Source: Bradyrhizobium mercantei (GTDB lineage Bacteria > Pseudomonadota > Alphaproteobacteria > Rhizobiales > Xanthobacteraceae). Taken from it: a stretch of DNA of 64,000 nucleotides. How positions within the stretch are numbered: the stretch's first letter is position 1; every line of letters begins with the position of its first letter. The notes under the pieces are model-generated. The model was not told where the DNA came from and ran no database searches. It saw only the letters and a list, made by a program, of their open reading frames with translations. Positions 11,090 to 29,269 of the stretch are shown here, in pieces. The stretch spans positions 241,609 through 305,608 of the forward strand of contig NZ_MKFI01000004.1 in the NCBI RefSeq assembly GCF_001982635.1, in the 5' to 3' direction. Position numbers and translations under genes: made by a program.

Positions 11090-11989
11090 TCAGGATGCCG
11101 CCTGCTCTTCGCGGCGCGCTCGCAGCAGCTTTTCGATCTCTGCGGCGCGCGGCGCGCTGAGTGTGCCGCGCTCGATCCCGAGCGGGACATTGCGCAGAGC
11201 CAGTTCGCGATACAGCGCACCCGAGGAGGGAAAGCGTTCGTCCAGCGCGCTGATATGCTTGCCGATCGTTCCAACGTCGCCGCGCGCCACGCAACCGCCC
11301 ATGCCGTTGGCCAGCCCCCCGTCGAGCACGGCCGCGACCGTCCCCCGCAGCAGCGGCATCATCGCACGCAGCGCGTCGGCCTCGCTGGCGCCAAAGCTCT
11401 TCCAGAGCTCGACGCCCTCCTTGAGGAGCGAGATCAGGAACGGACCGACATAGTAGGCCGAGGCATGATAGAGCGCCCGCACACCGGCCGGCAGCGCCAG
11501 CGGCTCGCACCCGATGCTGATGGCGAGCCGATCCAGCTCGCGCCTGAAGTCGGGCTCGGCCTCGATGCCGACGGTGCATCCGCGCAAACCCTCGAGCGCG
11601 ACGTCGGGATTTGCAAACATCTGCATCGGATGGAATCCGCCGGTTGCGGCGCCCGCGGATTTCGCATGATCGAGCGCGGCCAGTTCGGTCGCGCCGCTGC
11701 AATGAACCACGCGGTGATGCGGCTGCCAGCGCAAATCGCGGCAGGCCGGCAGGATGGCGTCGTCGCTCACCGTGAGGAAAATCATGTCGCAGCTGTCCAC
11801 GACCTGCTGCGCGTCCGTCATCGCGGTTGCCGACGGCACCCGGGAGCCGAGCTGCTGCGCGGCGTCGGCACCGCGGTTGTGGAAAGCCGCGACATTCAGG
11901 TTTGCGCGGGCGAAGGCCGGCGCCAGTGTCTGCGCCACGCGGCCGGCGCCGACGAACCCGATCCGCAACGCGGCCTGCGACGCGCTCAT
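11090..11989 (-). CDS. Rossmann-fold DUF2520-domain reductase-like protein
   Basis: A 299-residue protein with an N-terminal NAD(P)-binding fold (RIGFVGAGRVAQTLA, residues 8-22, giving GxGxxA) and a C-terminal helical DUF2520 domain containing YHASAYYVGPFLISLL. The arrangement resembles F420-dependent or pyrroline-5-carboxylate reductase relatives, but the substrate is unknown. The ATG at 11989 (MSASQAALRIG) overlaps the class II aldolase stop by four bases (ATGA), so the two are translationally coupled. The frame extends upstream to 12040, but that part overlaps the aldolase. Confidence 0.85.
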   Translation of the reverse strand: MSASQAALRIGFVGAGRVAQTLAPAFARANLNVAAFHNRGADAAQQLGSRVPSATAMTDAQQVVDSCDMIFLTVSDDAILPACRDLRWQPHHRVVHCSGATELAALDHAKSAGAATGGFHPMQMFANPDVALEGLRGCTVGIEAEPDFRRELDRLAISIGCEPLALPAGVRALYHASAYYVGPFLISLLKEGVELWKSFGASEADALRAMMPLLRGTVAAVLDGGLANGMGGCVARGDVGTIGKHISALDERFPSSGALYRELALRNVPLGIERGTLSAPRAAEIEKLLRARREEQAAS

Positions 11990-12828
11990 TGCGCGTAGCT
12001 CCCGTCGAGGCGATCGAGCCTGCGCCGCAATGCCGGCCATTCCAGCAGGCCGTAACCGGCTTGCTGGTTTTGCGCCGCTTCATTCAGCACCGGATTGGTG
12101 TCGCGCTCATTATCCAGTGTGATCTCGGTGCCGGCAAAGCAGGTCACCGTATTGCCGATCGCCAGTTCGCTCGGCGCGTGCAGCGGCCGGCCGCAGCCGA
12201 GCGCATCGACCTGGATGCGGCAGGCCTGCTCCAGCCAGTAGATCGCATTGAACGCCTGCGGAATCGTATTGCCGCAGACCAGGAGGCCGTGATTGCGCAG
12301 GACCAGCACATTGTTGCGGCCGAGATCGGCGACCACCCGATCGCATTCGTCGCGATCGATCGCCGGCCCCTCGAAATCGTGATAGCCGATCCGCCCGTGA
12401 AACCGCATCGCGGTCTGCGACAGCGGCAGCAGCCCCTCGGCAAGCGTGCTGACCGCAGTGCCTGCCCTGGTGTGGGTATGCAGGACGCACTTCACGTCGG
12501 GCCGCGCGCGATGGATCGGGGCATGCAGATAGAAACCGGCCACGTTGACGTTGTAGCCGTGGTCGGGCTGCAGCAAGGTGCGGCCCTCGATGTCGATCTT
12601 GACGAGGCTCGACGCCGTGATCTCCTCGTACAGCATGCCGTAGGGATTGATCAGATATTGATCGTCATGTCCGGGGACCTGCGCGCTGATGTGGTTGTAG
12701 ATCAGGTCGGTCATTCCATAGAGCGCGACCAGGCGGTAGCACGCCGCGAGATCGACCCGGGTCGCCCACTCCTGTTCTCCCACGCGGGCCCTGACATCGT
12801 GGACGGCACAAATTTCGGTCTGAAGCAT
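11986..12828 (-). CDS. Class II aldolase/adducin-family protein
   Basis: A 280-residue protein of the fuculose-phosphate aldolase/adducin superfamily, a zinc enzyme family acting on ketose phosphates or similar compounds. The zinc-site motifs are visible: VLHTHTRAG in the middle, VLRNHGLLV later, and the substrate-loop NHISAQVPG near residue 45. It lacks the short length of the sugar-phosphate aldolases and belongs to the generic adducin-like branch, so no reaction is proposed. The ATG at 12828 (MLQTEICAV) is preferred over in-frame codons up to 12975 that overlap the acyl-CoA dehydrogenase gene. Only 13 bases separate it from the end of that gene. Confidence 0.85.
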   Translation of the reverse strand: MLQTEICAVHDVRARVGEQEWATRVDLAACYRLVALYGMTDLIYNHISAQVPGHDDQYLINPYGMLYEEITASSLVKIDIEGRTLLQPDHGYNVNVAGFYLHAPIHRARPDVKCVLHTHTRAGTAVSTLAEGLLPLSQTAMRFHGRIGYHDFEGPAIDRDECDRVVADLGRNNVLVLRNHGLLVCGNTIPQAFNAIYWLEQACRIQVDALGCGRPLHAPSELAIGNTVTCFAGTEITLDNERDTNPVLNEAAQNQQAGYGLLEWPALRRRLDRLDGSYAQ

Positions 12829-12841
12829 GTGACTTCGGCCC

Positions 12842-14530
12842 TTAGTGATGGATGACGGAAGCGCGCGCGACGATCCCGGCGAGGCCTTCCGACGAAGGCA
12901 GCGTGCCGAAGACATGCATCCCGCCCGCGCCAAGCCTCGAATGCACGAACAGATCGGCGGCAGCGGCGTCGCCATGCCTCAACATCTCGGCAGCCTGCAA
13001 CGCATGCGCCATGCGGGTGACGAGCACCCTCGCATGCCCGTCGTCGGGATATCGTGCATGCAATCGATCGGCGAGATCGTCCGTGCTCTTGTCATAGACC
13101 GGGTTGAGGCCCCGGCTCGCGCGCAATTCATCGATGAACGCGTCACGGCAATCGGCGTCCCTCTGCATCGCTCGCAGCACGTCCATGCACATCATGTTCG
13201 AGGTACCTTCCCAGATCGAATTCAACGGCGCCTCGCGATAGAGCCGCGCCATCGCATTCTCCATGATGAAGCCGTTGCCGCCGTGCACCTGCAGGCACTC
13301 ATAGGTGAACGCCGGCGCGCGTTGGCAATTCCAGAACTTCACCACGGGTGTCGCGACCCGCGCCAGCAGCCGCTCGTGGTCGCTGGTTTGCATACCGTCG
13401 GTCGCGCGCGCGACGCGGAATGCGCCGAGCATCGCCGCCTCGCTCTCGAGCGCGAGGTCGGCGAGCACGTTGCGCTGCATCGGAAGCTCGGACATCGGCT
13501 TGCCGAACGCGGTTCGCGTCTGCGCGTGGTTCAGGGCCAGGCTCAACGCCTGCCGCATCAGCCCGGCCGAGCCGACCGCGAAATCCAGCCGCGTCAGATG
13601 CGCATGCGAGAGGATTTCGGCGATGCCGCGGCCTTCTTCGCCGACCAGGATCGACCAGGTGTCGTGGTACTCGATTTCGCTCGACGCGTTCGAACGGTTG
13701 CCGCATTTGTCCTTCAGGCGCTGAATGTGGATGCGGTTGGTGCTGCCGTCCGGCAGCAGGCGCGGCACGAACAGGCAACTGACACCGGATTGGGTGCGCG
13801 CCAGCGTGTAGAATCCGTCGGCGACCGGCACCGAGAAGAACCATTTGTGCCCGGTGATCGCATAGATCTCGCCATGCGCGCCGCGCTCGACGAAGCGCGC
13901 AGTGGTCTGGGTCTCGCGCAGATCCGAGCCGCCCTGCTTCTCGGTCATCGCATAGCCGATCACCGCCGCACGCTTGGCCTCGATCGGAAGCCTACGCGGA
14001 TCGTAGTCCGCGGCCAGCGTCCGCTCGCGCCACAGGCTGAATTGCGGCTTGCCGGAAAACCCAGCGATCGCGGCGTAAGCCATTCCGGTGGGACAGCCGA
14101 CGCCGTTCTCGATCTGATTCCAGAGATAGCTCAACGCCGCGCGCGCCAAATGGCCGTGCGGTTCGCTCGTTGACCAGGCCAGGCTATGGACCTCGCTCTG
14201 GAACGCCAGCGCCATCAATTGATGCCAGGCCGGATGAAATTCGACCCAGTCATTGCGGTTGCCATAGCGGTCATGGGTCAAGAGCTTCGGTTCGTGCTCA
14301 TTGGCGAGCCGCGCGGCCTCCTGCACAGATTCGGAGCCGGCATGGGCGCCGAGCGCGGAGAGCCTGGCCTGCGCCCACGGCGCCATCTCTGCGATCACGC
14401 CGCTCAGCGCGCGGTCGTCATCGAACGCGTTGAAGCCGAGCGCCGGCCGCGCCTGATTGCGAACCTCATGGGTCGCGAACGCACTGGCTTTTGCATCCGC
14501 GACGATAACCGGCTGAACACGCTCATTCAT
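12842..14530 (-). CDS. AidB-like acyl-CoA dehydrogenase
   Basis: A flavoprotein of 562 residues resembling AidB of the alkylation response and isovaleryl-CoA dehydrogenases. The AidB-style N-terminal block is NDWVEFHPAWHQLM. The FAD and substrate motifs YAMTEKQGGSDLRETQTTA and KWFFSVPVADGF and the C-terminal EGTSNMMCMDVLRAMQ are present. AidB proteins bind FAD and, in E. coli, DNA; whether this one acts in repair or in acyl-CoA oxidation cannot be read here. Its start overlaps the TetR gene stop by four bases, so it is probably autoregulated through that repressor. alkB lies 45 kb away and is not linked. Confidence 0.85.
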   Translation of the reverse strand: MNERVQPVIVADAKASAFATHEVRNQARPALGFNAFDDDRALSGVIAEMAPWAQARLSALGAHAGSESVQEAARLANEHEPKLLTHDRYGNRNDWVEFHPAWHQLMALAFQSEVHSLAWSTSEPHGHLARAALSYLWNQIENGVGCPTGMAYAAIAGFSGKPQFSLWRERTLAADYDPRRLPIEAKRAAVIGYAMTEKQGGSDLRETQTTARFVERGAHGEIYAITGHKWFFSVPVADGFYTLARTQSGVSCLFVPRLLPDGSTNRIHIQRLKDKCGNRSNASSEIEYHDTWSILVGEEGRGIAEILSHAHLTRLDFAVGSAGLMRQALSLALNHAQTRTAFGKPMSELPMQRNVLADLALESEAAMLGAFRVARATDGMQTSDHERLLARVATPVVKFWNCQRAPAFTYECLQVHGGNGFIMENAMARLYREAPLNSIWEGTSNMMCMDVLRAMQRDADCRDAFIDELRASRGLNPVYDKSTDDLADRLHARYPDDGHARVLVTRMAHALQAAEMLRHGDAAAADLFVHSRLGAGGMHVFGTLPSSEGLAGIVARASVIHH

Positions 14531-15527: not shown

Positions 15528-16286
15528 TCAGGCCGCCTTCGCCGTGATCAGAACGTCGTCCACCGGCATCAGCACGTCATTGCCGAGCAGGAAGCCGCGG
15601 CAGCTGCGCAGCGAGCGCAGCGCGCGGTTGAAATCGATCCCGGTCGACACCAGCGCCCGCAGCGTGCGCGGATTGCGCGCGATGCCGCGCAGCACCTTGC
15701 GCAGGTCGATGTCGCCGTTCGGCTTCACCGCGGATTTCGCCAGCTCCGGCAGCGCCCGGTGCGCGGGATCGCTGATCACGCGCAGTGCGGCGAACGGAAT
15801 GCGTGCTTTGGCGGCATAGGCCGCCGCGATATGGCTCTCCATATCGACTGCGGCTGCGCCCGTCATCGAACGCAGCGCGGCCTTGCAGGCCTTCGCCGCG
15901 ATCACCTCTTCCACGCCGGCGAGGCCGCCGCGGACGATCCGGCGGCGCTTCAGCGCGGCGCTGGCGATCATCTCCTCGTTCAGGGCGGATGCTGCCAGGA
16001 AACGCGTATCGCCCGACATCACTTCGGTCGCGACCACGACGTCGCCCGATTTGAGCGACGGGTCGAGCCCGCCGGCCACGCCGAACGAAATCACGCCACG
16101 GAAGGTGGTCGGATCCAGTGTCGCCAGCAATTCACGCAGCTGCTGCGGATCGCTGGAGCTACAGATGACGATCATGCCGGGGCCTGCCGCGATGCGGGCC
16201 TCCTGCACCAATCCAGTCACAATCAATACCGGCCGAGGATCAATTCTACTGCCCACGGTCTCGGCGGCCCCCGCCTCAACAATCAC
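15528..16286 (-). CDS. hpnG: Adenosylhopane nucleosidase HpnG (phosphorylase family)
   Basis: A 252-residue protein of the purine/uridine phosphorylase superfamily. HpnG is known to release adenine from adenosylhopane, leaving the ribosyl hopane that becomes bacteriohopanetetrol. The family features are the GVAGGLDPSLKSGDVVVAT segment, the purine-site VDMESH motif (AAAVDMESHIAAAYA) and the later RVISDPA containing the catalytic Asp. The start is a GTG (16284-16286) that overlaps the shc stop by four bases (GTGA), so the two are coupled. It ends 40 bases before a strong terminator, making it the last gene of the operon. Confidence 0.92.
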   Translation of the reverse strand: MIVEAGAAETVGSRIDPRPVLIVTGLVQEARIAAGPGMIVICSSSDPQQLRELLATLDPTTFRGVISFGVAGGLDPSLKSGDVVVATEVMSGDTRFLAASALNEEMIASAALKRRRIVRGGLAGVEEVIAAKACKAALRSMTGAAAVDMESHIAAAYAAKARIPFAALRVISDPAHRALPELAKSAVKPNGDIDLRKVLRGIARNPRTLRALVSTGIDFNRALRSLRSCRGFLLGNDVLMPVDDVLITAKAA

Positions 16287-18265
16287 ATCCCGACCCCTAC
16301 CACCCTGCTATTGGTGCTTCTCAAATTCCGATACCGCGCCAGCGCCCAGAGCGGAAAGAACTTCGAGTAGCCATGATATCGCAAGTAAAATACCCGCGGA
16401 AACCCCGTAGCCGTGTATCGCTGCTCGTCCCACAGCCCTTTTTCCGTCTGTGTTGCCTTTAGGTACTCCACCCCCCGCGCAACCGCGGGATTTTCGACCT
16501 CTCCGGCCGCCATTAATCCAAGCAAGGCCCATGCCGTTTGCGAGGAAGTCGATGGCGCAACTTCATAACCCTTGTAATCCAGCCGGTAACTGACGGCGTC
16601 CTCGCCCCATCCGCCGTCCTGATTCTGGACCGACGCCAGCCAGTCGACCGCCTTCCGAATCATCGGATCGTTGCGATCGACGCCTGCGACATTTAGCGCA
16701 CAAAGCACCGACCAGGTGCCGTAGACGTAGTTCAGGCCCCAGCGGCCGTACCAGGAGCCCTCGGCGAGCTGGGTGCGACGCAGGTAGGCAATGCCGTCGG
16801 CCATCACCTTGCTGCTCTCCGCAGTCTCGCCGAGCTGGCCCAGCATCGAGATGCAGCGCGCGGTGACGTCCTCGGTAGGCGGATCGAGCAATGCGCCGTG
16901 ATCGCTGAACGGGATGTTGTTGAGGTAATATTCGAGGTTGTTGACGTCGAACGCGGCCCAGCCGCCGTCGCGGCTCTGCAGCCCCTCGATCCACTCGCGG
17001 CCGCGTGCGATCGCCTCGTCATATTCCCGGGTTCCGGTATGACGCCGCACGCGATCCATCGCCATCACGACGACGGCGGTGTCGTCGAGATCGGGATAGT
17101 GGTCGTTGTTGTACTGGAACGCCCAGCCGCCGGGACGGACGTCCGGCGCCTTGACCGCCCAATCGCCCTTCAGCTCGAGCACCTGGCGTGGCTTCAACCA
17201 GTCGAGGCCTTGCTTGGCCTTGGCGAGCGTATCGTCGCCGCCCGCTTCCTGCAGCGCATGGCAAGTCAGCGCGGTGTCCCACACCGGCGAGACGCAGGGC
17301 TGGCAATAGGCCTCGTCGTCGCCGATCACGAGCAGCTTGTCGATGCCGCGGCGGGTGATGGCGCGCGGCGGGAAATTCTCGTCCTTGCCGAGCGCCTCGT
17401 ACATCATGACGATGTTGGCCATCGGGGGATAGATCGCGCCCATGCCGTCTTCACCGTTCAATCGCTCTTCGGTGAAGGCGAGCGCGGCGTCGATCGCGCG
17501 CTGGCGCAGGCTGTTCGGAAACATCGGCTCGATCGCGCGCAGCACGGCGTCGAGCGAGCGGAACAGATAAAACCAGCTCGCGCTCTGATGCGGCGCCTTC
17601 GGCGCCATGCGCACCGATTTCGGGTCCTCCAGGAACAGTTCGTCGATGCCGACGCCCTTCGGATTCTTGGCGCGCGGCTTCAGCGCGGCGAGCACCATCA
17701 GCGGCACCATCGTGGTGCGCGCCCAATAGGAGATCTTGTTGATGTGGAACGGCGACCACATCGGCAGCAGCATGATCTCGATCGGCAGCACCGGCGTCGC
17801 GCGCCAGGTGACGACGCCGTAGAGCGCGAGCAGGAAGCGCGTGAACACATTGCTGCCCGAAGCGCCGCCGCGGGACCGGATCGCCTCGCGCGCCCGCACC
17901 ATATGCGGCGCGTCGACGGAATCGCCGATCATCTTCAGCGCGAAATACGACTTCACGCTGGCGCTCATGTCGAACGGGCCGTCATGCACCAGCGGCCAGC
18001 CGCCATGCGCGCCCTGAACGCGACGCAGATAGTTGCCGAGCTTGGCCTCGAGGGCGGCATCGACGGGCTCGGCGAGGTAGTGACGCAGCAGGATGTATTC
18101 GGCCGGAATGGTGCTGTCGGCCTCGAGCTCGAACACCCAGTGCCCGTCGGACTGGCGATAGCCGAGCAGGGCTTCCGTTGCCTTGGAGATGCTCTTCTCC
18201 AGCGCGACCGGATCGACTGCAACGCCGTGATCTCTCGAAAGCATTTCGCTCGATATCCTCTTCAT
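16283..18265 (-). CDS. shc: Squalene-hopene cyclase
   Basis: A 660-residue membrane-associated cyclase (also called HpnF) that converts squalene to hopene and hopanol. The protonation motif DxDD reads DLDD (Asp392, Asp394, Asp395) in YPDLDDTAVVV. Several QW repeats are present (QSRDGGWAAFD, QNQDGGWGED, KGLWDEQRYT), and the length is that of the family. The ATG at 18265 (MKRISSEMLS) begins 40 bases before the hpnE stop, so the two genes overlap. The frame is open further upstream but there codes for arginine-rich sequence lying inside hpnE. Part of the hpnC-D-E-shc-hpnG unit. Confidence 0.96.
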   Translation of the reverse strand: MKRISSEMLSRDHGVAVDPVALEKSISKATEALLGYRQSDGHWVFELEADSTIPAEYILLRHYLAEPVDAALEAKLGNYLRRVQGAHGGWPLVHDGPFDMSASVKSYFALKMIGDSVDAPHMVRAREAIRSRGGASGSNVFTRFLLALYGVVTWRATPVLPIEIMLLPMWSPFHINKISYWARTTMVPLMVLAALKPRAKNPKGVGIDELFLEDPKSVRMAPKAPHQSASWFYLFRSLDAVLRAIEPMFPNSLRQRAIDAALAFTEERLNGEDGMGAIYPPMANIVMMYEALGKDENFPPRAITRRGIDKLLVIGDDEAYCQPCVSPVWDTALTCHALQEAGGDDTLAKAKQGLDWLKPRQVLELKGDWAVKAPDVRPGGWAFQYNNDHYPDLDDTAVVVMAMDRVRRHTGTREYDEAIARGREWIEGLQSRDGGWAAFDVNNLEYYLNNIPFSDHGALLDPPTEDVTARCISMLGQLGETAESSKVMADGIAYLRRTQLAEGSWYGRWGLNYVYGTWSVLCALNVAGVDRNDPMIRKAVDWLASVQNQDGGWGEDAVSYRLDYKGYEVAPSTSSQTAWALLGLMAAGEVENPAVARGVEYLKATQTEKGLWDEQRYTATGFPRVFYLRYHGYSKFFPLWALARYRNLRSTNSRVVGVGM

Positions 18266-18305
18266 CGCGGGCCGGCTGGAGCCGCGCCCACTCAACAGGT
18301 CGAAT

Positions 18306-19556
18306 CTAACGCCTGGCCAGAACCAGATCTGCGGCGCGATCACCTGATCGCACCGATCCCTCGATGGTTGCTGGCAACCCGGTAGCAGTCCAATCGCCGG
18401 CAAGGAACAGGTTTTTCTGCGCCGTTGCGGCCCCAGGTCGCAGCGCGTTCTGCTCCGGCGTCGCCTCAAATGTGGCGCGACGCTCGCGCACGATCTGCCA
18501 GGGCGGCAAGTCGCCGGACACGCCGGACGCCTTGCAGATATCCCGCCAGATCGCCTGCGCGAGTTCCTCGCGCGGCATGTCGACCAGGCGATCGCCGTTG
18601 CTGATCGTGATCGATAGCCGCTGCGGGAACGCGAACAGCCACTCCACGAGGCCGCCGACCACGCCGAGAATGGGCGCGGCGTCGCGCGGCGGATCGACGC
18701 GGAAATGCGCGTTGACGATGGCGCGGAATTTGGTCGGCGTTTTCACGCCGGGGAGCAGCGATGCCGCAGCACGCGGCGGCACCGCGAGCACGACGGCATC
18801 GTCGGTCGCCAGCACGATCTTGTCGCCACCGCCAAAGTCGAGCTCGCTGACGCGATCACCGGACATGCCAAGCGTACGCAATTCGTGACTGAACTGGACG
18901 CTGTGCCCCCGCTCCTGCAGCAGCTTCACGGCCGGCTCGATCAAGACCGAGCTCAGGCCGTCGCGCGCGATCAGCGGACGGCAGGCCTGCCCGCCGGCAA
19001 GCAGCGTCTCGCGCACGATGGCGCCGGCAAGCCCGGCCGAGCCCTCCGGCGGATCGACGTTCAATGCCGCGAGCAGCAGCGGCTGCACCAGGCGGTCATA
19101 CAGCGTGCCCTTGCAGGGAATGGTGTTGCCGACCAGCGCCTCGGTGCCGGCCCAGGCCAGCGGCGCCAATGCCAGATAGTCGCGCAGGGTGGTGTCCGGC
19201 ACGCGGCGCGCCTCGTCGAACACCCACAGCGGCAGGCGGGAATCGCCGAGGTCGAGCTGCCAGCGCTGGCCGGTGGCCAGATCGACGAACGGAAACTGTG
19301 CGCGCGCGGGTCCGACGAGGCCGGCCTCGGTGCCGATCGAGCGCGCGTAGCCCAGCGCATGGCGATTGCCCGACAGCAAGAGATGGTTGCCATTGTCGAT
19401 GGTCAGATTGGTCGCGGCGTCGAAATAGGAGCGGCAGCGTCCGCCGGCCTGCTGCGTCGCCTCGTGGACGGCCACCTTGTAGCCGCCATTGGCGAGCCGC
19501 ACGGCGGCAGAGAGGCCGGAAATACCGGCACCGATGATATGAACGGTCTTTTGCAT
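18306..19556 (-). CDS. hpnE: Hydroxysqualene dehydroxylase HpnE
   Basis: A 416-residue FAD-dependent oxidoreductase that, with HpnC and HpnD, makes squalene by reducing hydroxysqualene. The FAD dinucleotide-binding motif is at the very N-terminus (HIIGAGISGLSAAVRLA, residues 6-22), followed by the GGRCRS block. The C-terminal FAD site is NLFLAGDWTATGLPATIEG, near residues 382-400. Its start overlaps the hpnD stop by one base (TGATG), which signals coupling. Its 3' end is upstream of the shc start by 40 bases, so shc translation begins just after it. Confidence 0.95.
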   Translation of the reverse strand: MQKTVHIIGAGISGLSAAVRLANGGYKVAVHEATQQAGGRCRSYFDAATNLTIDNGNHLLLSGNRHALGYARSIGTEAGLVGPARAQFPFVDLATGQRWQLDLGDSRLPLWVFDEARRVPDTTLRDYLALAPLAWAGTEALVGNTIPCKGTLYDRLVQPLLLAALNVDPPEGSAGLAGAIVRETLLAGGQACRPLIARDGLSSVLIEPAVKLLQERGHSVQFSHELRTLGMSGDRVSELDFGGGDKIVLATDDAVVLAVPPRAAASLLPGVKTPTKFRAIVNAHFRVDPPRDAAPILGVVGGLVEWLFAFPQRLSITISNGDRLVDMPREELAQAIWRDICKASGVSGDLPPWQIVRERRATFEATPEQNALRPGAATAQKNLFLAGDWTATGLPATIEGSVRSGDRAADLVLARR

Positions 19557-20392
19557 CAGATGATCGCGTAACGGAGAAGAATGCCGATCTTGGCCGCCTT
19601 GGACACACGCACCGGCTCACGCGGAGCGGCGAAGCCGCGCGCGATCAACAGATCGAGGATCGCACGGTAGTATTTCGACATGATCCGCGGCGCACGCACG
19701 GCGCGGCGCGAATTGCGCTTCATGATCTCGTCGGACTTCTGGAAATGCATCTTGGCGCGCTCGGCGAGCGGCGTGCACACCTTCGGCAGCGCGCGATCGG
19801 CGGTGACGCGTGCCGGGTCGTTATTGGTAATGCCGGCGTGCCAGAGCCATTCGCGCGGCAGATAGAGCCGGCCGAGCCCGGCATCCTCGTCGATGTCGCG
19901 CAGAATGTTGGTGAGCTGCAGCGCGCGGCCGAGATGGTAAGCGAGCTGGATGCCATCGTCCTCGGGCAGACCGAACACGCGCACCGACAGCCGGCCGACC
20001 GCGCTCGCGACGCGATCGCAATACAAATCGAGCGTCGCGAGATCCGGCGCGCGAATGTCCTGCGGCACGTCCATCTCCATGCCGTCGACGATCGCGACGA
20101 AGTCCTCGCGCTTCAGGCCGAAGGTCTTCACCGACGCGACATAGTCCTTGAGGCGCGCCGGCGGACGTCCCGCATAGAGCGCGTCGATATCGTCGCGCCA
20201 CTGCTGCAGCGCGGCCAGCCGCTCCGGCCGCGGCCCGTCGGAATCGGCGATGTCGTCGACCTGCCGGCAGAAGCTGTAGATCTGGAACATCGCCTCGCGC
20301 TGCGCGCGCGGCAGGATCCGCATCGCGGCATAGAACGAGCTGCCCGACGCGGTGCTGTCGTAATTTGCGTTGGCCGCCGCCTCAGCACTCAT
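19556..20392 (-). CDS. hpnD: Presqualene diphosphate synthase HpnD
   Basis: A 278-residue head-to-head prenyl transferase that joins two farnesyl diphosphates to presqualene diphosphate. The two aspartate-rich Mg sites are visible: DDIAD at residues 46-50 (CRQVDDIADSDG) and the second at NILRDIDEDAG (Asp166-Asp170). The conserved arginine-rich RLYLPREWL segment follows. It overlaps hpnC by four bases (20389-20392, ATGA) and hpnE by one, so these three squalene genes are tightly coupled. Confidence 0.95.
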   Translation of the reverse strand: MSAEAAANANYDSTASGSSFYAAMRILPRAQREAMFQIYSFCRQVDDIADSDGPRPERLAALQQWRDDIDALYAGRPPARLKDYVASVKTFGLKREDFVAIVDGMEMDVPQDIRAPDLATLDLYCDRVASAVGRLSVRVFGLPEDDGIQLAYHLGRALQLTNILRDIDEDAGLGRLYLPREWLWHAGITNNDPARVTADRALPKVCTPLAERAKMHFQKSDEIMKRNSRRAVRAPRIMSKYYRAILDLLIARGFAAPREPVRVSKAAKIGILLRYAII

Positions 20393-21267
20393 GCGCCTGC
20401 CGCCGTCCTGGATGCTGCACGCCGTCCGGTCGCGCGCTGCGCGGTCTCGCCGGCGACGCCACCGAGGCTCTGCAACAGCAGCTCGACCTTGCTCAGATGC
20501 ACACGCTCGCTGAGCGGATCGCGCACCTTCAACATGTTGACGATCTTGTCGGCGAACGCCTGGATCACCGAGATCTCGAGCCCGAGCCGGAAATCCTTCA
20601 CCTCAGCGGCGAGCGACTTGCTCTCATCGAGCAGCGCTTCGGTCCGCACCGCGAGTGCCTGCAGGCACTTGAGCAGGGCCGGCTGCGACTTCGCCTCGCC
20701 GAGCATCTCGACGGTTGCGCCCGCGGCGGCCAAGGCATCGCGCGGCAGATAGACGCGGTTCAGGTTGCGGTAGTCCTTGCCGCAGTCCTGAAGATGATTG
20801 TTGATCTGCAGACCCGCGCAGAGCGCATCCGACGCCGCCCAGGTCGAAACATCCTCGCCATGCACGTCGAGCATGAAGCGTCCGACGGGCATCGCCGAGT
20901 ACCGGCAATAGTCGATCACGTCATCCCAGGTCTCGTAGCGCAGCTTGGTGACGTCGAGGCGGAACGCGACCAGCACGTCGAGCGCGTGCCGCGGCGGCAT
21001 GCCGCGCTCGGCCAAGGCCCGGCGCAGATTGACGGCCTCCCTCTGCGTCTCGCCATTGCCGAGCAACTCGGCCTCCATGAGGTCGAGGTAGCGCAGCTTC
21101 TCCTCCGCCGGCAGCGTGGCGTGGTCGGCGATATCGTCGGCGGTGCGGACGAAATTATAGAACGCCAGGATCAGGGCACGATGCCGCGGATGAATGATCC
21201 ACGATGCGACCGGAAAATTCTCGTCGCGATGGGTCTTTCCGGATCGCAGGTCGCTCGCGGTGGTCAT
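20389..21267 (-). CDS. hpnC: Hydroxysqualene synthase HpnC
   Basis: A 292-residue squalene/phytoene-synthase-family protein that turns presqualene diphosphate into hydroxysqualene. The first Asp-rich motif is DDIAD at residues 44-48 (RTADDIADHA). The second region is degenerate compared with HpnD (LQDCGKDYRNLNRVYLP), as in the family. It is the first gene of the minus-strand hopanoid operon, so the operon promoter should lie just upstream at 21268-21463. No specific promoter motif was recognised there. Confidence 0.94.
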   Translation of the reverse strand: MTTASDLRSGKTHRDENFPVASWIIHPRHRALILAFYNFVRTADDIADHATLPAEEKLRYLDLMEAELLGNGETQREAVNLRRALAERGMPPRHALDVLVAFRLDVTKLRYETWDDVIDYCRYSAMPVGRFMLDVHGEDVSTWAASDALCAGLQINNHLQDCGKDYRNLNRVYLPRDALAAAGATVEMLGEAKSQPALLKCLQALAVRTEALLDESKSLAAEVKDFRLGLEISVIQAFADKIVNMLKVRDPLSERVHLSKVELLLQSLGGVAGETAQRATGRRAASRTAAGA

Positions 21268-22692: not shown

Positions 22693-25077
22693 TCAGGCCT
22701 TTTCGATCGGCGCCGGCTGCCCGCCTTTGCCGCGCAGCTTTTGCGACAGGTTGATCAGGAACATCGAGGTCGGCCGCAGGATGAAGAGATCCGCGACCAG
22801 CGCTGCGACCATCGAGAACGCGCTGAGCCAGCCGAACAGACGCAGCGACGGCAGGTCGGAGAACACGGTGACGACGAGGCCGCAGGCCAGCACCACCGTG
22901 GTCAGGATCAGCGCAGGACCGACCAGGACGGTGGCACGCTCGACCGCGAGTTCCGGCGTGACACCGGGCTTGGTCTCGAGCCGCAGGCGGTTGAGGAAGT
23001 GGATGGTGGCGGAGAGCCCGAGGCCGAACGACACGGTCAACGCCACCACGCTGGCGAATTGCAGCCCCTCCCCGAGCAGCCACAGCACGGTGCCCGACAG
23101 CACCACGGGGAAGATGCCGGGCAGGATGCAGGAGAACATCACCACGACCGAGCGGAACGCGAGCCCGATGAAAACTGCCACCAGCAGGAATTCAACGGTC
23201 AGGCCACGGTTCAGTTTTTCGATCATGTTGGCGCTGTTGCGCGCTGCGATCACCGATAGGCCGGTGACCGCGATCTCGTAACCGGGATGCTCGGCGCGGA
23301 CCTTGTCCAGCGAGCTATCCAGCTTGTTCACCACCGGAAGCAGCTGGCTCGAGTCCAGATCCGGAACCCGGCCCGACACCACCACCGCATCCTGATCCGC
23401 CGAGATGAAGCGGCGCACCAGATGCTCGGGAATCACGCCGACATACTCCTTCAGCGTCGCGACATCGTTGCTGCCGGCCTTTTCGGCGAGCCAGCGGCGC
23501 AGGGTTTCCAGCGACCAGACGTTGCCGACGCCCGCCGCGGTTTCGACCATCGCGTGGACGTCGGCGATCGTCTTCAAGGTCTCCGGCGAGTAGAGCGATT
23601 GACCCTTGGGGAATTCGATCAGCACGTCGACCGGATTGGCGCCGGTCAGCTTGGCGTCGAGCCGGCTCGACGCCGCCACCGCCTGCCGCTTGTCCGGCAC
23701 CTGGTCGGCGAGCCGGTAGCGAGGCTCGAGATTGGCGTAGATGATGCCGAGACCGCCGACCACGATCACCGCGATCAGGCTGAACAGCCCGGGACGGCCC
23801 ACCATGCGCACCGCGATCCAGTAGCAGAAATTGCGCAACGCCTGGACGCCGGCATCGGCGCCCTGGAACTTGACCGCGAACACTTTTTCGTTGCGTACCA
23901 GAAGCATTCCGAACGCAGGCACCAGCGAGAGCACTGCGATCAGCGCGATGATGGTCGCGGCGAGCCCGGCCTCGCCGAACTTGCGGATCAGGTCGGAATT
24001 CGAGAATTGCAGCGCGATGAACGAGATGCCGGCAGTGCCATGAGTCAGCACGCAAGCCGGACCGACCACCATCACCGCGTTCCTGAACGCGGTGTACTTG
24101 TCCTGGCCGGCGATGAGGCGGTCTCGTGCCGCAAACGTCAGCTGCATCGAGTCGGAGAAGCTGATCACCATGATGAGCGGCGTCATCACGTTCAGGAACA
24201 TGTTGAGATTGAAGCCGGCCCAGCCGAGGCCGCCTAGCGCCAGAAGGATCGCAATGATCGGCGGGAATGCGGCGATCACCATGAACGATATCTTGCGGAA
24301 GAAGATGATCGCGATAATGCAACCGGCCAGAATGCCGAGGATATTGTAGGTCAGCCCGTCGCGCTTGACCGCGTTGCGGATCTCGAGCTGCATAACCGGA
24401 ACGCCGGAGAGCTGGGCGTTGAGTCCGCTACCGCTGAGATCGTCGGCCATGATCTTTCTCATGTCCGCGACGACTTTGCTGAGCTTGTTGCTGCCGACGA
24501 CCTCAGGCTCGAGCGACAACACGATCAGCGCGAGCGTTCCATCCTCGGACAACAGCTTGCCGCGAATGATCTCGTTGGATTTGACGGTCTCGACGAATTT
24601 GTCGTAGGCGGCGCCTTGCGGCAGCTCGGACGGGAACAGCGCGGCCGGCAGCTTGCCGGGCTCGGGCGCCTGACGCGCCGAAAACAGCGAGACCAGACCG
24701 CGCACGCCCTCGACCAGCTGTAGGTCGGTGACCATGTCGCGCACCTTTTCGAGGTTCTCGCGCGCAAGGAGCGTCTTGCCCTCGATCACAACGAGCACAT
24801 CGAACTCGGTCGCGGGGAAGCGTTTGGTGACCGCTTCGTACTGCTTGTAATCCTTGGAATTGGAACGGAACAACTGGCTGAGCGAGTCGTCGATCTTGAT
24901 GCGCTCGATGCCGAAAACGGCCGCGACCATCAGCGCGAGCAGGATGATGACAGACAGGACCGGCGCCTTGATCGCGATCAGGCCAATACGCTCCAGCCCG
25001 AATGCGATGCTCGGGCCCGCGTGTGGCTCTTCGACCTTCTCGACGTGGACCTGACTTTCGGTGTTCTTTTCGAGCAT
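22693..25077 (-). CDS. HpnN-like RND/MMPL-family transporter
   Basis: A 794-residue inner-membrane transporter with the HpnN-like 1+loop+5, 1+loop+5 layout. The first helix is near residues 35-57, then a periplasmic loop to about 235, five helices, a helix near residue 420, a second loop and five more helices. It resembles hopanoid and lipid RND exporters rather than drug pumps, because it lacks the large docking domain. It lies downstream of the hopanoid locus and upstream of hpnP, so a lipid cargo is plausible but unproven. The N-terminal 30 residues are acidic and cytoplasmic. Confidence 0.85.
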   Translation of the reverse strand: MLEKNTESQVHVEKVEEPHAGPSIAFGLERIGLIAIKAPVLSVIILLALMVAAVFGIERIKIDDSLSQLFRSNSKDYKQYEAVTKRFPATEFDVLVVIEGKTLLARENLEKVRDMVTDLQLVEGVRGLVSLFSARQAPEPGKLPAALFPSELPQGAAYDKFVETVKSNEIIRGKLLSEDGTLALIVLSLEPEVVGSNKLSKVVADMRKIMADDLSGSGLNAQLSGVPVMQLEIRNAVKRDGLTYNILGILAGCIIAIIFFRKISFMVIAAFPPIIAILLALGGLGWAGFNLNMFLNVMTPLIMVISFSDSMQLTFAARDRLIAGQDKYTAFRNAVMVVGPACVLTHGTAGISFIALQFSNSDLIRKFGEAGLAATIIALIAVLSLVPAFGMLLVRNEKVFAVKFQGADAGVQALRNFCYWIAVRMVGRPGLFSLIAVIVVGGLGIIYANLEPRYRLADQVPDKRQAVAASSRLDAKLTGANPVDVLIEFPKGQSLYSPETLKTIADVHAMVETAAGVGNVWSLETLRRWLAEKAGSNDVATLKEYVGVIPEHLVRRFISADQDAVVVSGRVPDLDSSQLLPVVNKLDSSLDKVRAEHPGYEIAVTGLSVIAARNSANMIEKLNRGLTVEFLLVAVFIGLAFRSVVVMFSCILPGIFPVVLSGTVLWLLGEGLQFASVVALTVSFGLGLSATIHFLNRLRLETKPGVTPELAVERATVLVGPALILTTVVLACGLVVTVFSDLPSLRLFGWLSAFSMVAALVADLFILRPTSMFLINLSQKLRGKGGQPAPIEKA

Positions 25078-25121: not shown

Positions 25122-25218
25122 CTAAAGCGCGATGAGATCGGGTTGAATCATCGCGCTTTAGCGTCTTGTTTGCGCATGATCTTTTCGGAAAACCGCTTGG
25201 CACTTTTCCGGATCATGC
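25122..25218. repeat. Two-hairpin intergenic repeat (CTAAAGCGCGATGA type)
   Basis: The first hairpin is a 14-bp perfect inverted repeat (CTAAAGCGCGATGA at 25122-25135 against 25148-25161). The second is GCATGATC/GATCATGC (25174-25181 and 25211-25218) enclosing CGGAAAA/TTTTCCG. I associate this composite with a widespread bradyrhizobial intergenic element. It lies 45 bases upstream of the RND gene, so that promoter must overlap or precede it. Confidence 0.75.
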
Positions 25219-25372
25219 TTCAGGGGCGCGAATGAGGCGGGTGAGCGCAACCGATCGGCGCTAGTCCTTGAAAACACGCGAATATTGACCGGCGCCGGTT
25301 TTACCTGTCCGCCCCTTCGCTCGCAAGCGCGAGGCTCGCGCCAAATCGACCGGGAACCGCCGATCCCCAGCA

Positions 25373-26167
25373 TTAAGTAACTGATTTGCCACACCCCGGG
25401 AGCGCATTCTGTGACGATCCACCGCCGCTTTCATCTTTCAGCGCGACCCCCGTGATCTGGCGCGCCAGTCCCTCACGCACAAGCCACGAAATCCTGAACG
25501 CGGCTTCCGCATAGCTCAGCCCGGCGCGATGGATGTTGGAGACACAGTTGCGGTCGGCGTCGGTGAGACCGATCCGCGGCGCGAAGGTCAGATAGGCGCC
25601 AAGGCTGTCGGGCGCGGAAAGGCCGGGCCGCTCGCCGATCAGCATCACCAGCATGCGAGCGCCGAGGATGGCGCCGATCTCGTCACCGAGCGCGACCCGC
25701 GCGCCCGATGCTGTGATCACCGGTCCCGCGTCGATCCTGTCGGCCGCAAGTTGCGGCACCAGATGCCGGACCAATTCGACGGCATGCACATTGACCGCGG
25801 TCGGGGACAGGCCGTCACCGATCACGATCGCGCAGGAGCACGCGGTGATACCGCTCCCCTCCAGCGATCGTCGTGATGCGGAATCCAGCATGCGGCCGAG
25901 ATCGGGCCGGCGCAGATAGTCGCGCCGGCTGGGCGCCTGGCTCGACACCTCGCGCGGCGCGAGGCCGAGGCCGGCAAGACCGGCCGCAATCCCGCTGACG
26001 TCGAAAGCCGCGTGAACCGCGTCGCGGGCGCGGGCATGGTCGAGCGTGAAGGAGAGCAGCGCATTGGTCGGCAGGCTGGCCCCGGATCGGCCGAGACCGA
26101 CGCGGGCCGGCGTCAGGTCGCGCAGATCGGGCAGCGAAGGGGATGATGGCGCCGGCGGTGTCGTCAT
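25373..26167 (-). CDS. eutC: Ethanolamine ammonia-lyase small subunit EutC
   Basis: A 264-residue light subunit of the adenosylcobalamin-dependent enzyme that splits ethanolamine into acetaldehyde and ammonia. Family blocks visible are the [21 protein letters not shown]-terminal block, [18 protein letters not shown] and [22 protein letters not shown]. The ATG at 26167 ([11 protein letters not shown]) lies only four bases after the hpnP stop, so hpnP and eutC are surely co-transcribed. The large subunit eutB lies on the far side of hpnP. Confidence 0.95.
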
Positions 26168-26171
26168 GCTG

Positions 26172-27758
26172 TTATTCGGCGGGAACGGAAGCCTCGCGCA
26201 GCCGGATCGAGTAGTTCGAGGCGTTCTGCCGGCCGCTGGAGGCGGCACGCGCAAACGTGATCAAGTGATGGGCAACCAGCGTCGCCGAGATCAGCCCCTC
26301 GATGTCGCCGCGCTTGAGCCGGCCCAGCGCAAATTTCCAGAACACGCGCCTGTAGTCGCCGAGCACGCCGACCTTCCAGAAGATGTTGCGCAGCATGATC
26401 AGGCCGCGCCGGATGTTGGCCCAGCTCTTCATCTCCGGGCTGACCGGCACCTTGATGCGGTTGGCATAGGTGTAGTTGCACTGATGCAAATAGCGCGCGA
26501 ACAGCGTCTTCGGCTCGTAGGCGATTTCCATGCATTTGCGCCAGGAACTGACCACGTCCTCATAGGGCAGCAGGAACTCGACATTGGAGTCGCGACCGTC
26601 GTCATGGACCAGCCGCCCGGCCTTTTCGAGCCGGTCCCACAGCGGCGTCTTCGGCAGCGCCTGCAGCAAATTGATGGTGAGGAGCGGAATCCGGGACTCC
26701 TCGACAAAGGAGATCAGCGCGTCGCCGGTCTGGGGCTTGTCGGTATCGAGCCCCATGATGATGCCGGAGACCACCTCCATGCCGAACGAATTGATGGTGC
26801 GCACGCCCTCCAGGATCGGAACCATCATGTTCTGATCCTTGTGCATCGCCTTCAGCGCATCGGGATCGGGCGTCTCGATGCCGACGAAGATCGTCACGAA
26901 GAAGGCTTCGCGCATCTTCTCCAGGATCTCGGGGCGCTTGGCGATGTTGAGCGTCGCCTCGCAGGCGAGCCGCGTGACGTAGCCGGTCCGCTTCTGCCAC
27001 TCGATCAGATGCGGCAACAGCTCGCTCGCCGCCTTGCGGTTGCCGATGAAATTGTCGTCGACGAAATAGACGGTATCGGTCGCGCCGCATGCGCGCAGCT
27101 TGTCGAGCTCGGCGATGATCTGCTGCGGCGACTTCAGGCGCGGATTGCGGCCATAGAGCCCGGGGATATCGCAGAACTCGCACTGATAGGGACAGCCCGA
27201 GGAGAACTGGATGCTGCCGAGGAAGTACTTCTTGGTTTCGGCGAGCTCATAGGCCGGCAGCGGAAAATCCGTCATCGGCAGGCGGTCGATGGTCTTCAGC
27301 ACCACCTGCGCGTCGGGACGGCTGGTGTCCTCAGCGAGGCGCTTGATCAGCTCATTGGTGGCGTCGCCGAGCTCGCCGACGTGAAGGTAGTCGAATGACG
27401 GATAGTAGTCCGGGCAGGCGCTGACCGACGGACCGCCGATCGCGACCACGAGATCGTGGTCATGCGCGCGATGACAGATGTCGTTCATCTGCTGGCGCTG
27501 GATGTGCATACCACTGACGAACACCGCGTCCGCCCACTCAAAATCCTCCGCCGTTGCCGGACGCAGGTTCTCGTCGACGAAACGGACCGGCCAGTTCTCG
27601 GGAAGATAGGCGGCGATCAGCAGCAGGCCCTGCGGCGGCATGAACGCCTTGACGCCGTCGGTCAGGGGGTAGGCGTGCTCGAAGGTGCCAAACGACGACG
27701 TATAGCGCGGAAAGACGCAGAGGATACGCCGAACTGTGTTTATGCCCTCAGCTCTCAT
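26172..27758 (-). CDS. hpnP: Hopanoid C-2 methylase HpnP (B12-binding radical SAM)
   Basis: A 528-residue class B radical SAM methylase. HpnP is known to make 2-methylhopanoids, known as sedimentary biomarkers. The N-terminal B12-binding domain (about 11-150) contains CVFPRY and the [17 protein letters not shown] block. The radical SAM cluster is Cys189, Cys193 and Cys196 ([18 protein letters not shown]). The C-terminal 150 residues match the helical tail of the HpnP/HpnJ group. HpnJ, a ring-contraction enzyme, is the main alternative; HpnP is preferred from the overall motif set and the absence of HpnI/HpnK neighbours. The ATG at 27758 is chosen over an in-frame TTG at 27782. It sits between eutB and eutC. 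Confidence 0.85.
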
Positions 27759-27886
27759 CAAATGACCCCGAAGCACCTGCAAATCTAACCACGGCGCGGA
27801 ACGCTGGGCCAGAAATTCTTCAACATTGTGGCACTACTTAACGTCACAACGATGAGATAGTTGCTCTGCAGAATATCGCTATCCCG

Positions 27887-29269
27887 TCACGTCAAGAGCC
27901 TGGCAGCGAGGTCGGGCAGCCGCGCCGTATCGGCAATCAGGCGGAAGTCCTGCCCGGCAAGGCCTGCGCGCAACAGCCAGTCGTCGAATTCGGGCGCCCG
28001 CCTCAGACCGAACAGGTCGCGGATGTAGAGCGCATCGTGAAACGATGTCGACTGATAGTTCAGCATAACGTCATCCGCGCCCGGCACGCCCATGATGAAG
28101 TTCACGCCGGCAGCCGCGAGCAGCGTCAGGAGATTGTCCATATCGTCCTGATCGGCCTCGGCGTGGTTGGTGTAGCAGACGTCGATCCCGAGCGGCAGGC
28201 CGAGCAGCTTGCCGCAGAAATGATCCTCCAGCCCGGCGCGGATGATTTCCTTGCCGTCATAGAGGTATTCAGGACCGATGAAGCCGACCACGCTGTTGAC
28301 GAGCAGCGGATCGAACGCGCGCGCCACCGCATAGGCCCGCGCCTCGCAGGTCTGCTGATCGACCTGGTGGTGGGCATTGGCCGACAGCGCCGAGCCCTGC
28401 CCGGTCTCGAAATACATCACATTGTCACCGACCGTGCCGCGGCGCAGCGACAGCCCCGCCTCACGCGCCTCCCGCAACAGCGACAGGTCGACGCCGAAGC
28501 TGCGGTTGGCGGCCTCGGTGCCGGCGATCGACTGGAACACGAGATCGACCGGCAGCCCCCGTCCGATCAGTCCGAGCGTGGTCGTGACATGGGTGAGCAC
28601 GCAGCCCTGCGTCGGGATCTCGAGCCGGGTGATGATGTCGTCGAGGAGCCGCAGCAGGGTGCCAATGACCTTCGGATCGTCGCTCGCCGGATTTATGCCG
28701 ATGCAGGCATCGCCCGATCCGAGCAGCAGCCCGTCGAGGATCGAGGCGGTGATGCCCTTGGGGTCGTCGAACGGATGGTTGGGCTGCAGCCGCGTGCTCA
28801 TGCGCCCGCGCAAGCCGACGGTGTTGCGGAAGCGGGTCGTCACCTCGCATTTCTTCGCCACCAGGATCAGATCCTGGTTGCGCATCAGCTTCGACACCGC
28901 CGCCACCATCTCCGGCGTGATGCCGCGCGAGATCTTCCTGAGCGCATCAGTGGTGGCGGCATCCGACAGCAGCCAGTCGCGGAAGCCGCCGACGGTCAGC
29001 GACGACACCGGCAGGAAGCCGGCAACGTCGTGGCTGTCGAGGATCAGCCGGGTGACTTCGTCGTCCTCGTAGGGGATGACGGGCTCATCGAGGAATTGCT
29101 TGAGCGGCACGTTGGCCAGCGCCAGCCGTGCGGCAATCATCTCCTCCGCACTGTCGGCTGCGACGCCGGCCAGGCGATCGCCGGAACGCGGCGGCGAGGC
29201 CTTGGCAAGCAGGATGCGCAGATCGTCGAATGCGTAATTGGTGGCCTCGATGGTGTGACGATAGAGCAT
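27887..29269 (-). CDS. eutB: Ethanolamine ammonia-lyase large subunit EutB
   Basis: The 460-residue catalytic subunit of the adenosylcobalamin-dependent ethanolamine ammonia-lyase. Family blocks include RNTVGLRGRMSTRLQPNHP, the active-site SGDACIGINPASDDP and YTNHAEADQDDMDNLLTLLA. It is 128 bases upstream of hpnP on the same strand. No bacterial-microcompartment or eutA reactivase gene is in the window, so the enzyme probably works free in the cytoplasm and would supply acetaldehyde and ammonia. Both it and hpnP use cobalamin, which may explain their linkage. Confidence 0.95.
   Translation of the reverse strand: MLYRHTIEATNYAFDDLRILLAKASPPRSGDRLAGVAADSAEEMIAARLALANVPLKQFLDEPVIPYEDDEVTRLILDSHDVAGFLPVSSLTVGGFRDWLLSDAATTDALRKISRGITPEMVAAVSKLMRNQDLILVAKKCEVTTRFRNTVGLRGRMSTRLQPNHPFDDPKGITASILDGLLLGSGDACIGINPASDDPKVIGTLLRLLDDIITRLEIPTQGCVLTHVTTTLGLIGRGLPVDLVFQSIAGTEAANRSFGVDLSLLREAREAGLSLRRGTVGDNVMYFETGQGSALSANAHHQVDQQTCEARAYAVARAFDPLLVNSVVGFIGPEYLYDGKEIIRAGLEDHFCGKLLGLPLGIDVCYTNHAEADQDDMDNLLTLLAAAGVNFIMGVPGADDVMLNYQSTSFHDALYIRDLFGLRRAPEFDDWLLRAGLAGQDFRLIADTARLPDLAARLLT

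Follow-up and report, generated by a model that had tools for sequence, protein, structure and literature searches.

Ethanolamine ammonia-lyase, which is built from the large subunit EutB and the small subunit EutC, uses cobalamin, and its genes form eutBC operons with or without an eat permease gene. The hopanoid C-2 methylase HpnP likewise depends on cobalamin (PMC10697835), and the 2-methylhopanoids, which are used as molecular fossils, have a cellular role that is unsettled. The stress sigma factor EcfG reportedly upregulates hpnP in Rhodopseudomonas palustris TIE-1 (PMC4676935), and a strain of Bradyrhizobium diazoefficiens without HpnP is reported to show no phenotype in two symbioses (PMC11005386). 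Here we describe a locus of Bradyrhizobium mercantei in which hpnP separates eutB from eutC. It lies in a window, the whole stretch of DNA analysed, of 64,000 nucleotides (nt; assembly GCF_001982635.1, contig NZ_MKFI01000004.1, positions 241,609-305,608 of the forward strand) from a genome of 8.84 Mb, and the minus strand reads eutB, hpnP, eutC and then a hopanoid cluster. The eutB-hpnP-eutC order is real, old and shared, and no paper on it was found in the open-licence literature, judged by title and abstract.

Results

The lyase genes were identified by family scores. EutB (eutB, 27887..29269, minus strand, 460 amino acids, aa) scores 701.5 bits with NCBIfam NF011649, above the cut-off of 554, and EutC (eutC, 25373..26167, minus strand, 264 aa) scores 304.9 bits with NF003971, above the cut-off of 230. 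The protein encoded between them (26172..27758, minus strand, 528 aa from the ATG) is predicted to be HpnP. A domain search found B12-binding, radical SAM and DUF4070 domains, a make-up described for HpnP and also for HpnP-like proteins (PMC10697835), and the motif CPYQCEFC is present. No NCBIfam model names the protein, the best match, to TIGR04479, scoring 72.3 bits where 600 are required, and it is called HpnP because of these domains, the adjoining hopanoid cluster and the clear gap that separates HpnP matches from paralogues of 34-41% identity in the same family. First among its named relatives is the protein of Bradyrhizobium viridifuturi (98%). The original prediction had placed hpnP between the two lyase genes at 25373-29269, with four bases between hpnP and eutC; the reading frames and family scores bear out the order and its coordinates, and the four bases lie between the hpnP stop, ending at 26172, and the eutC ATG at 26167. 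The eutB-hpnP spacer (27759..27886, minus strand) is 128 nt long if hpnP starts at its ATG (27758) and 104 nt long if it starts at an alternative TTG (27782).

HpnP, EutB and EutC were searched for in 198 genomes of the family, and the positions of the matches were then compared. At a threshold of E <= 1e-60, 118 genomes matched HpnP, of which 98 were kept after removal of the 34-41% identity paralogues; two fragmented HpnP genes were each entered without their second row, and a 95-residue piece of EutB in genome G189 was also left out. The three genes stand in the order eutB-hpnP-eutC and in one orientation in 38 of the 198 genomes (38 of the 98 with HpnP) and in 8 genera: in 11/11 genomes of Bradyrhizobium, the present one counted, and in 27 genomes of seven other genera. 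The comparison across relatives thus shows an order that is not unique to this genome, and its recurrence in so many genomes and genera is therefore more than chance. An adjacent eutBC pair located only elsewhere was found in 17/98 HpnP genomes and no eut match of any kind in 43/98, and a single eut gene never stood beside hpnP (0/98). Genomes without HpnP include 42 with an adjacent eutBC pair and one with eutB alone.

The same picture emerges from loci of named relatives. The best 80 of 291 HpnP relatives (L072-L151) show the full order in 77 cases; two of the exceptions, L079 and L105, reach the contig edge after hpnP, and the third, L103, is without both eut genes. A wider sample of 347 genomes of the taxonomic order contains 26 with HpnP at E <= 1e-150. 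All 13 of those inside the family have eutB adjoining hpnP, 12 of them belonging to the 198-genome sample too. Outside the family, where EutC was not searched and the tables were compared by eye, eutB was near hpnP in 0/13 HpnP genomes, eight of which have EutB elsewhere.

On a tree of EutB (72 of 177 extracted sequences) all hpnP-linked sequences form one clade, 29 linked against 43 unlinked, with support of 100/99. On a tree of HpnP (55 of 151 sequences) the order is scattered, requiring 7 changes, at least 6 of them on well-supported branches. A single linked EutB clade together with a scattered distribution on the HpnP tree therefore suggests, as the simplest reading, that the arrangement was assembled once and that both eut genes were then lost repeatedly while hpnP stayed in place. 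Among 14 eut-less loci (L172-L185) hpnP stands directly before the gene in the hpnN position in 11 and before hpnC in the other three. In locus L103, from Bradyrhizobium sp. BRP22, hpnP is flanked by short remnants of both eut genes, apparently a loss of the pair caught midway. The losses remove both eut genes, so EutB and EutC behave as a pair of which hpnP is independent. In genome G189, eutB is split in two and lies about 1.67 kb from hpnP (L164, about 11175-14223), and a second eutBC pair is present elsewhere.

Of the 77 named loci with the order, 69 have a gap of -4 to 8 nt between hpnP and eutC, four starts not being placed; eutB and hpnP lie 85 to 180 nt apart in the named loci. The longer spacer contains a conserved block, CCACAATnTTGAAGAATTTnTnGCCCAGC (27803..27831, minus strand), which occurs once in the window and once in the whole genome when up to 3 mismatches are allowed. 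Within 7 of 25 mismatches it was recovered in 77/80 named loci, 12/20 other loci with the order and 8/14 eut-less loci, and in 0/6 outgroup loci and no shuffled sequence. Identity in the block is 0.80 (all ten loci, best site). The two flanks of 28 bases reach 0.37 and 0.50, and the four-fold sites of four neighbouring genes 0.56 to 0.67. No description of the block was found in the accessible parts of the literature cited here. The best reading of this anatomy is that hpnP has a conserved upstream control region of its own, in which a promoter would be active.

Known types of signal were sought in and around the same spacer. No terminator was found in it, a consensus search gave no sigma-70-type promoter, and the window contains no cobalamin riboswitch or other known RNA at the Rfam gathering score. 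Two candidate roles were rejected: a structured leader, since the spacer folds no better than shuffles (z 0.10), and a coding sequence, since the short ATG frame that the block has in the window is kept by relatives neither as ATG nor as frame. With no terminator, riboswitch or unusual fold found in the spacer, transcription of eutB may read through into hpnP. Upstream of eutB in Bradyrhizobium the alignment is poorly conserved and no conserved motif was found. The hexamer TTAGAT lies about 14 bases past the block (27783-27788), and a similar hexamer follows the block in many relatives' loci. Furthermore, the pattern GxAACyATy is present in 56/80 named loci, mostly just upstream of the block, a raw count taken without a control, and is possibly a variant of the EcfG-like site.

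The EcfG-like site, defined as GGAAC-N15-18-NGTT, was sought upstream of linked hpnP genes in 121 sequences, 111 of them distinct, with shuffled sequences as control; the sequence of the window's own genome (L001) was kept out of the set of 23 from other genera. In this set of distinct linked sequences the site precedes hpnP in 18 of the 23 (0.3 in shuffles), and in eut-less loci it does so in 13/15 (0.1 in shuffles). Upstream of eutB it was rejected as a candidate, with 1/102 linked sequences against 1.1 expected and 0/49 unlinked ones. The exact site is not in the window. These upstream sites lend some support to stress control of hpnP in the other genera and none in Bradyrhizobium.

Substrate binding presumably involves R160, Q162, N193, E287 and D362 in the numbering of Escherichia coli EutB, and these five positions are kept in 96/96 linked EutB sequences examined. 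At position 257 the window has Ser where E. coli has Glu. The median ratio of non-synonymous to synonymous substitution rates (dN/dS) over ten loci is 0.13 for eutB, 0.25 for eutC, 0.15 for hpnP and 0.20 for the hpnN-position gene, which indicates purifying selection on both eut genes despite their split. Since the five positions are kept and dN/dS is low, EutB and EutC look like an intact and functional ethanolamine ammonia-lyase.

The genome encodes no EutA and no EutH, and its best match to the ethanolamine permease model TIGR00908 reaches 70.9 bits, below the cut-off of 381.75. Permease matches at E <= 1e-100 were found in 24/198 family genomes, in 1/38 with the eutB-hpnP-eutC order against 23/59 with an adjacent eutBC pair only elsewhere. 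Seven of the 24 exceed the curated cut-off, distributed as 1/38 and 6/59, respectively. Because a permease is missing, the natural inference is that the ethanolamine arises inside the cell, most likely by phospholipid turnover. The suggestion in the original prediction that membrane-lipid turnover supplies the substrate thus gains from these data, as far as an argument from absence can carry it; alternatively, ethanolamine may enter by diffusion or by an unrecognised transporter. In five loci (L198, L199, L200, L201 and L206) an unlinked eutBC pair, placed on the opposite strand, interrupts a fatty-acid synthesis cluster between fabD and fabG/fabF, the fab families having been checked in L198 and the other four assigned by layout. 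The fab cluster is the second lipid gene cluster seen to contain eutBC.

Downstream of eutC on the minus strand, an RND/MMPL transporter gene (22693..25077) begins after 295 nt. It is labelled as hpnN by position, its score against the HpnN model TIGR03480 being just 59.2 bits with a cut-off of 751.85. It is followed by hpnC, hpnD and hpnE (18306..21267, minus strand), which score above the cut-offs of TIGR03464, TIGR03465 and TIGR03467, and by the squalene-hopene cyclase gene shc (16283..18469, minus strand; PF13243, PF13249). In 26/40 loci (L152-L191) shc and hpnP share a stretch of about 20 kb, although a 2023 study reports that squalene cyclase and HpnP are not syntenic in any phylum (PMC10697835). 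At 25140-25230, between eutC and the hpnN-position gene, lies a dispersed repeat, for which 40 of 161 candidate matches in the genome were scored. It weakly resembles the Brucella small RNA families RF02599 and RF02600 without reaching the gathering score of either.

Discussion

The explanation that we favour, tentatively and with a little less than even confidence, is that hpnP lodged once between eutB and eutC, that the lyase works on internal ethanolamine and that eutC is read from the control region of hpnP. The insertion would have taken place long ago, beside the hopanoid cluster, in an ancestor that Bradyrhizobium shares with related genera. We infer that EutB and EutC still form a working lyase, acting on intracellular ethanolamine that most likely comes from phospholipid turnover. 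The main control of hpnP expression would lie in the gene's own upstream region, within the eutB-hpnP spacer; Bradyrhizobium and many relatives would use the conserved block there, and other genera an EcfG-type stress site. Lying usually a few bases behind hpnP, eutC would be read from the same region, possibly with translational coupling to hpnP, and read-through from eutB may add to the expression of both. A direct functional link between HpnP and the lyase is possible, if unproven.

Several observations weigh against this explanation. The short hpnP-eutC gap holds in just 10/20 loci of other genera, and the rule by which eutC starts were placed, the start codon nearest the hpnP stop, is itself biased to short gaps. 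The block is missing in 8/20 of the other loci with the order and in 6/14 eut-less loci, and as the spacer has no terminator that could be found, transcription from eutB may dominate. The EcfG-like site occurs at chance in Bradyrhizobium, in 1/88 distinct sequences against 1.4 when shuffled, it is not in the BRP22 locus L103, and its shuffled controls ignore kinship. Because the exact site is at chance in this genus, the sequence GCAAC-N16-CGTT in the spacer (27840..27864, minus strand), one mismatch from an EcfG-type site, is a tentative candidate; in Sphingomonas melonis, some of the putative EcfG sites are reported to be GCAAC variants (PMC6599016). On the EutC tree (53 of 175 sequences) the linked label takes 2 changes among long branches, a weaker result, though compatible with one origin. 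Finally, tgl, by its family foreign to both pathways, is kept in 13/20 stretches with the order, and conserved order alone is therefore weak evidence of function.

The persistence of the unrelated tgl also makes a strong rival of pure hitchhiking, in which hpnP fell by chance into a eutBC operon, a slowly rearranging region keeps the order and the functions are unrelated. The repeated retention of hpnP after eut loss and the failure to see eutB near hpnP in any of the 13 HpnP genomes outside the family are in line with it. Chance insertion accounts less readily for the tight hpnP-eutC gap in 69/77 named loci, although this point loses force in the other genera, and for the purifying selection acting on both eut genes although they are split. 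We consider hitchhiking quite credible, with a chance of being correct that is clearly below even.

A further explanation is a membrane-remodelling unit in which stress turns over phosphatidylethanolamine, EutBC recycles the ethanolamine and hopanoids are methylated in step. The stress-type site at hpnP in other genera and the position of eutC behind hpnP would fit such a unit, as would a genome without EutH, EutA or a permease over the cut-off and the scarcity of permeases among genomes with the order at either threshold. The stress-type site is nevertheless at chance in Bradyrhizobium, diffusion or an unrecognised transporter may bring ethanolamine in, and both eut genes are lost while hpnP stays, from which it follows that hpnP does not need them. 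We regard such a unit as unlikely, and the same holds for its stricter, stress-regulated form, in which EutC would be made only together with HpnP by way of the spacer block and phosphatidylethanolamine head-group recycling and hopanoid methylation would rise together.

Tuning of 2-methylhopanoid production by ethanolamine or B12, one possibility raised in the original prediction and taken here to act through a eutB promoter that would respond to ethanolamine plus cobalamin and drive hpnP, is very improbable: the shared use of cobalamin and the spacer in which no terminator was found speak for it, but the window is without a cobalamin riboswitch, the block survives in 8/14 eut-less loci, hpnP outlives the eut genes in the 43/98 HpnP genomes with no eut match, EcfG control of hpnP is reported for TIE-1 (PMC4676935), and the anatomy agrees better with the reverse, in which eutC has come to lie behind a control region that belongs to hpnP.

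The shared and often tight link between hpnP and the lyase genes, for which the natural losses of the eut pair serve as controls, offers a concrete way to test whether C-2 methylation accompanies the turnover of phospholipids. The analysis further singles out one conserved, single-copy element upstream of hpnP.

Three known systems can be set beside this locus. The hpnP gene of R. palustris TIE-1 encodes the same kind of enzyme, and EcfG-like sites precede hpnP in other genera of the family; TIE-1 is likened here by the kind of enzyme and its reported regulation, and in Bradyrhizobium the site is at chance. Ethanolamine ammonia-lyase operons resemble the locus in that the window's EutB and EutC exceed the NCBIfam cut-offs and the EutB active-site positions are kept. 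They differ in that the window's genes are parted by hpnP, that its genome is without EutA, EutH or a permease over the cut-off and that its EutB falls in a clade of its own. The hopanoid biosynthesis cluster (hpnC-D-E, shc, hpnG and hpnN) follows directly after eutC, also on the minus strand, the difference here being that one gene, eutC, stands between hpnP and the cluster.

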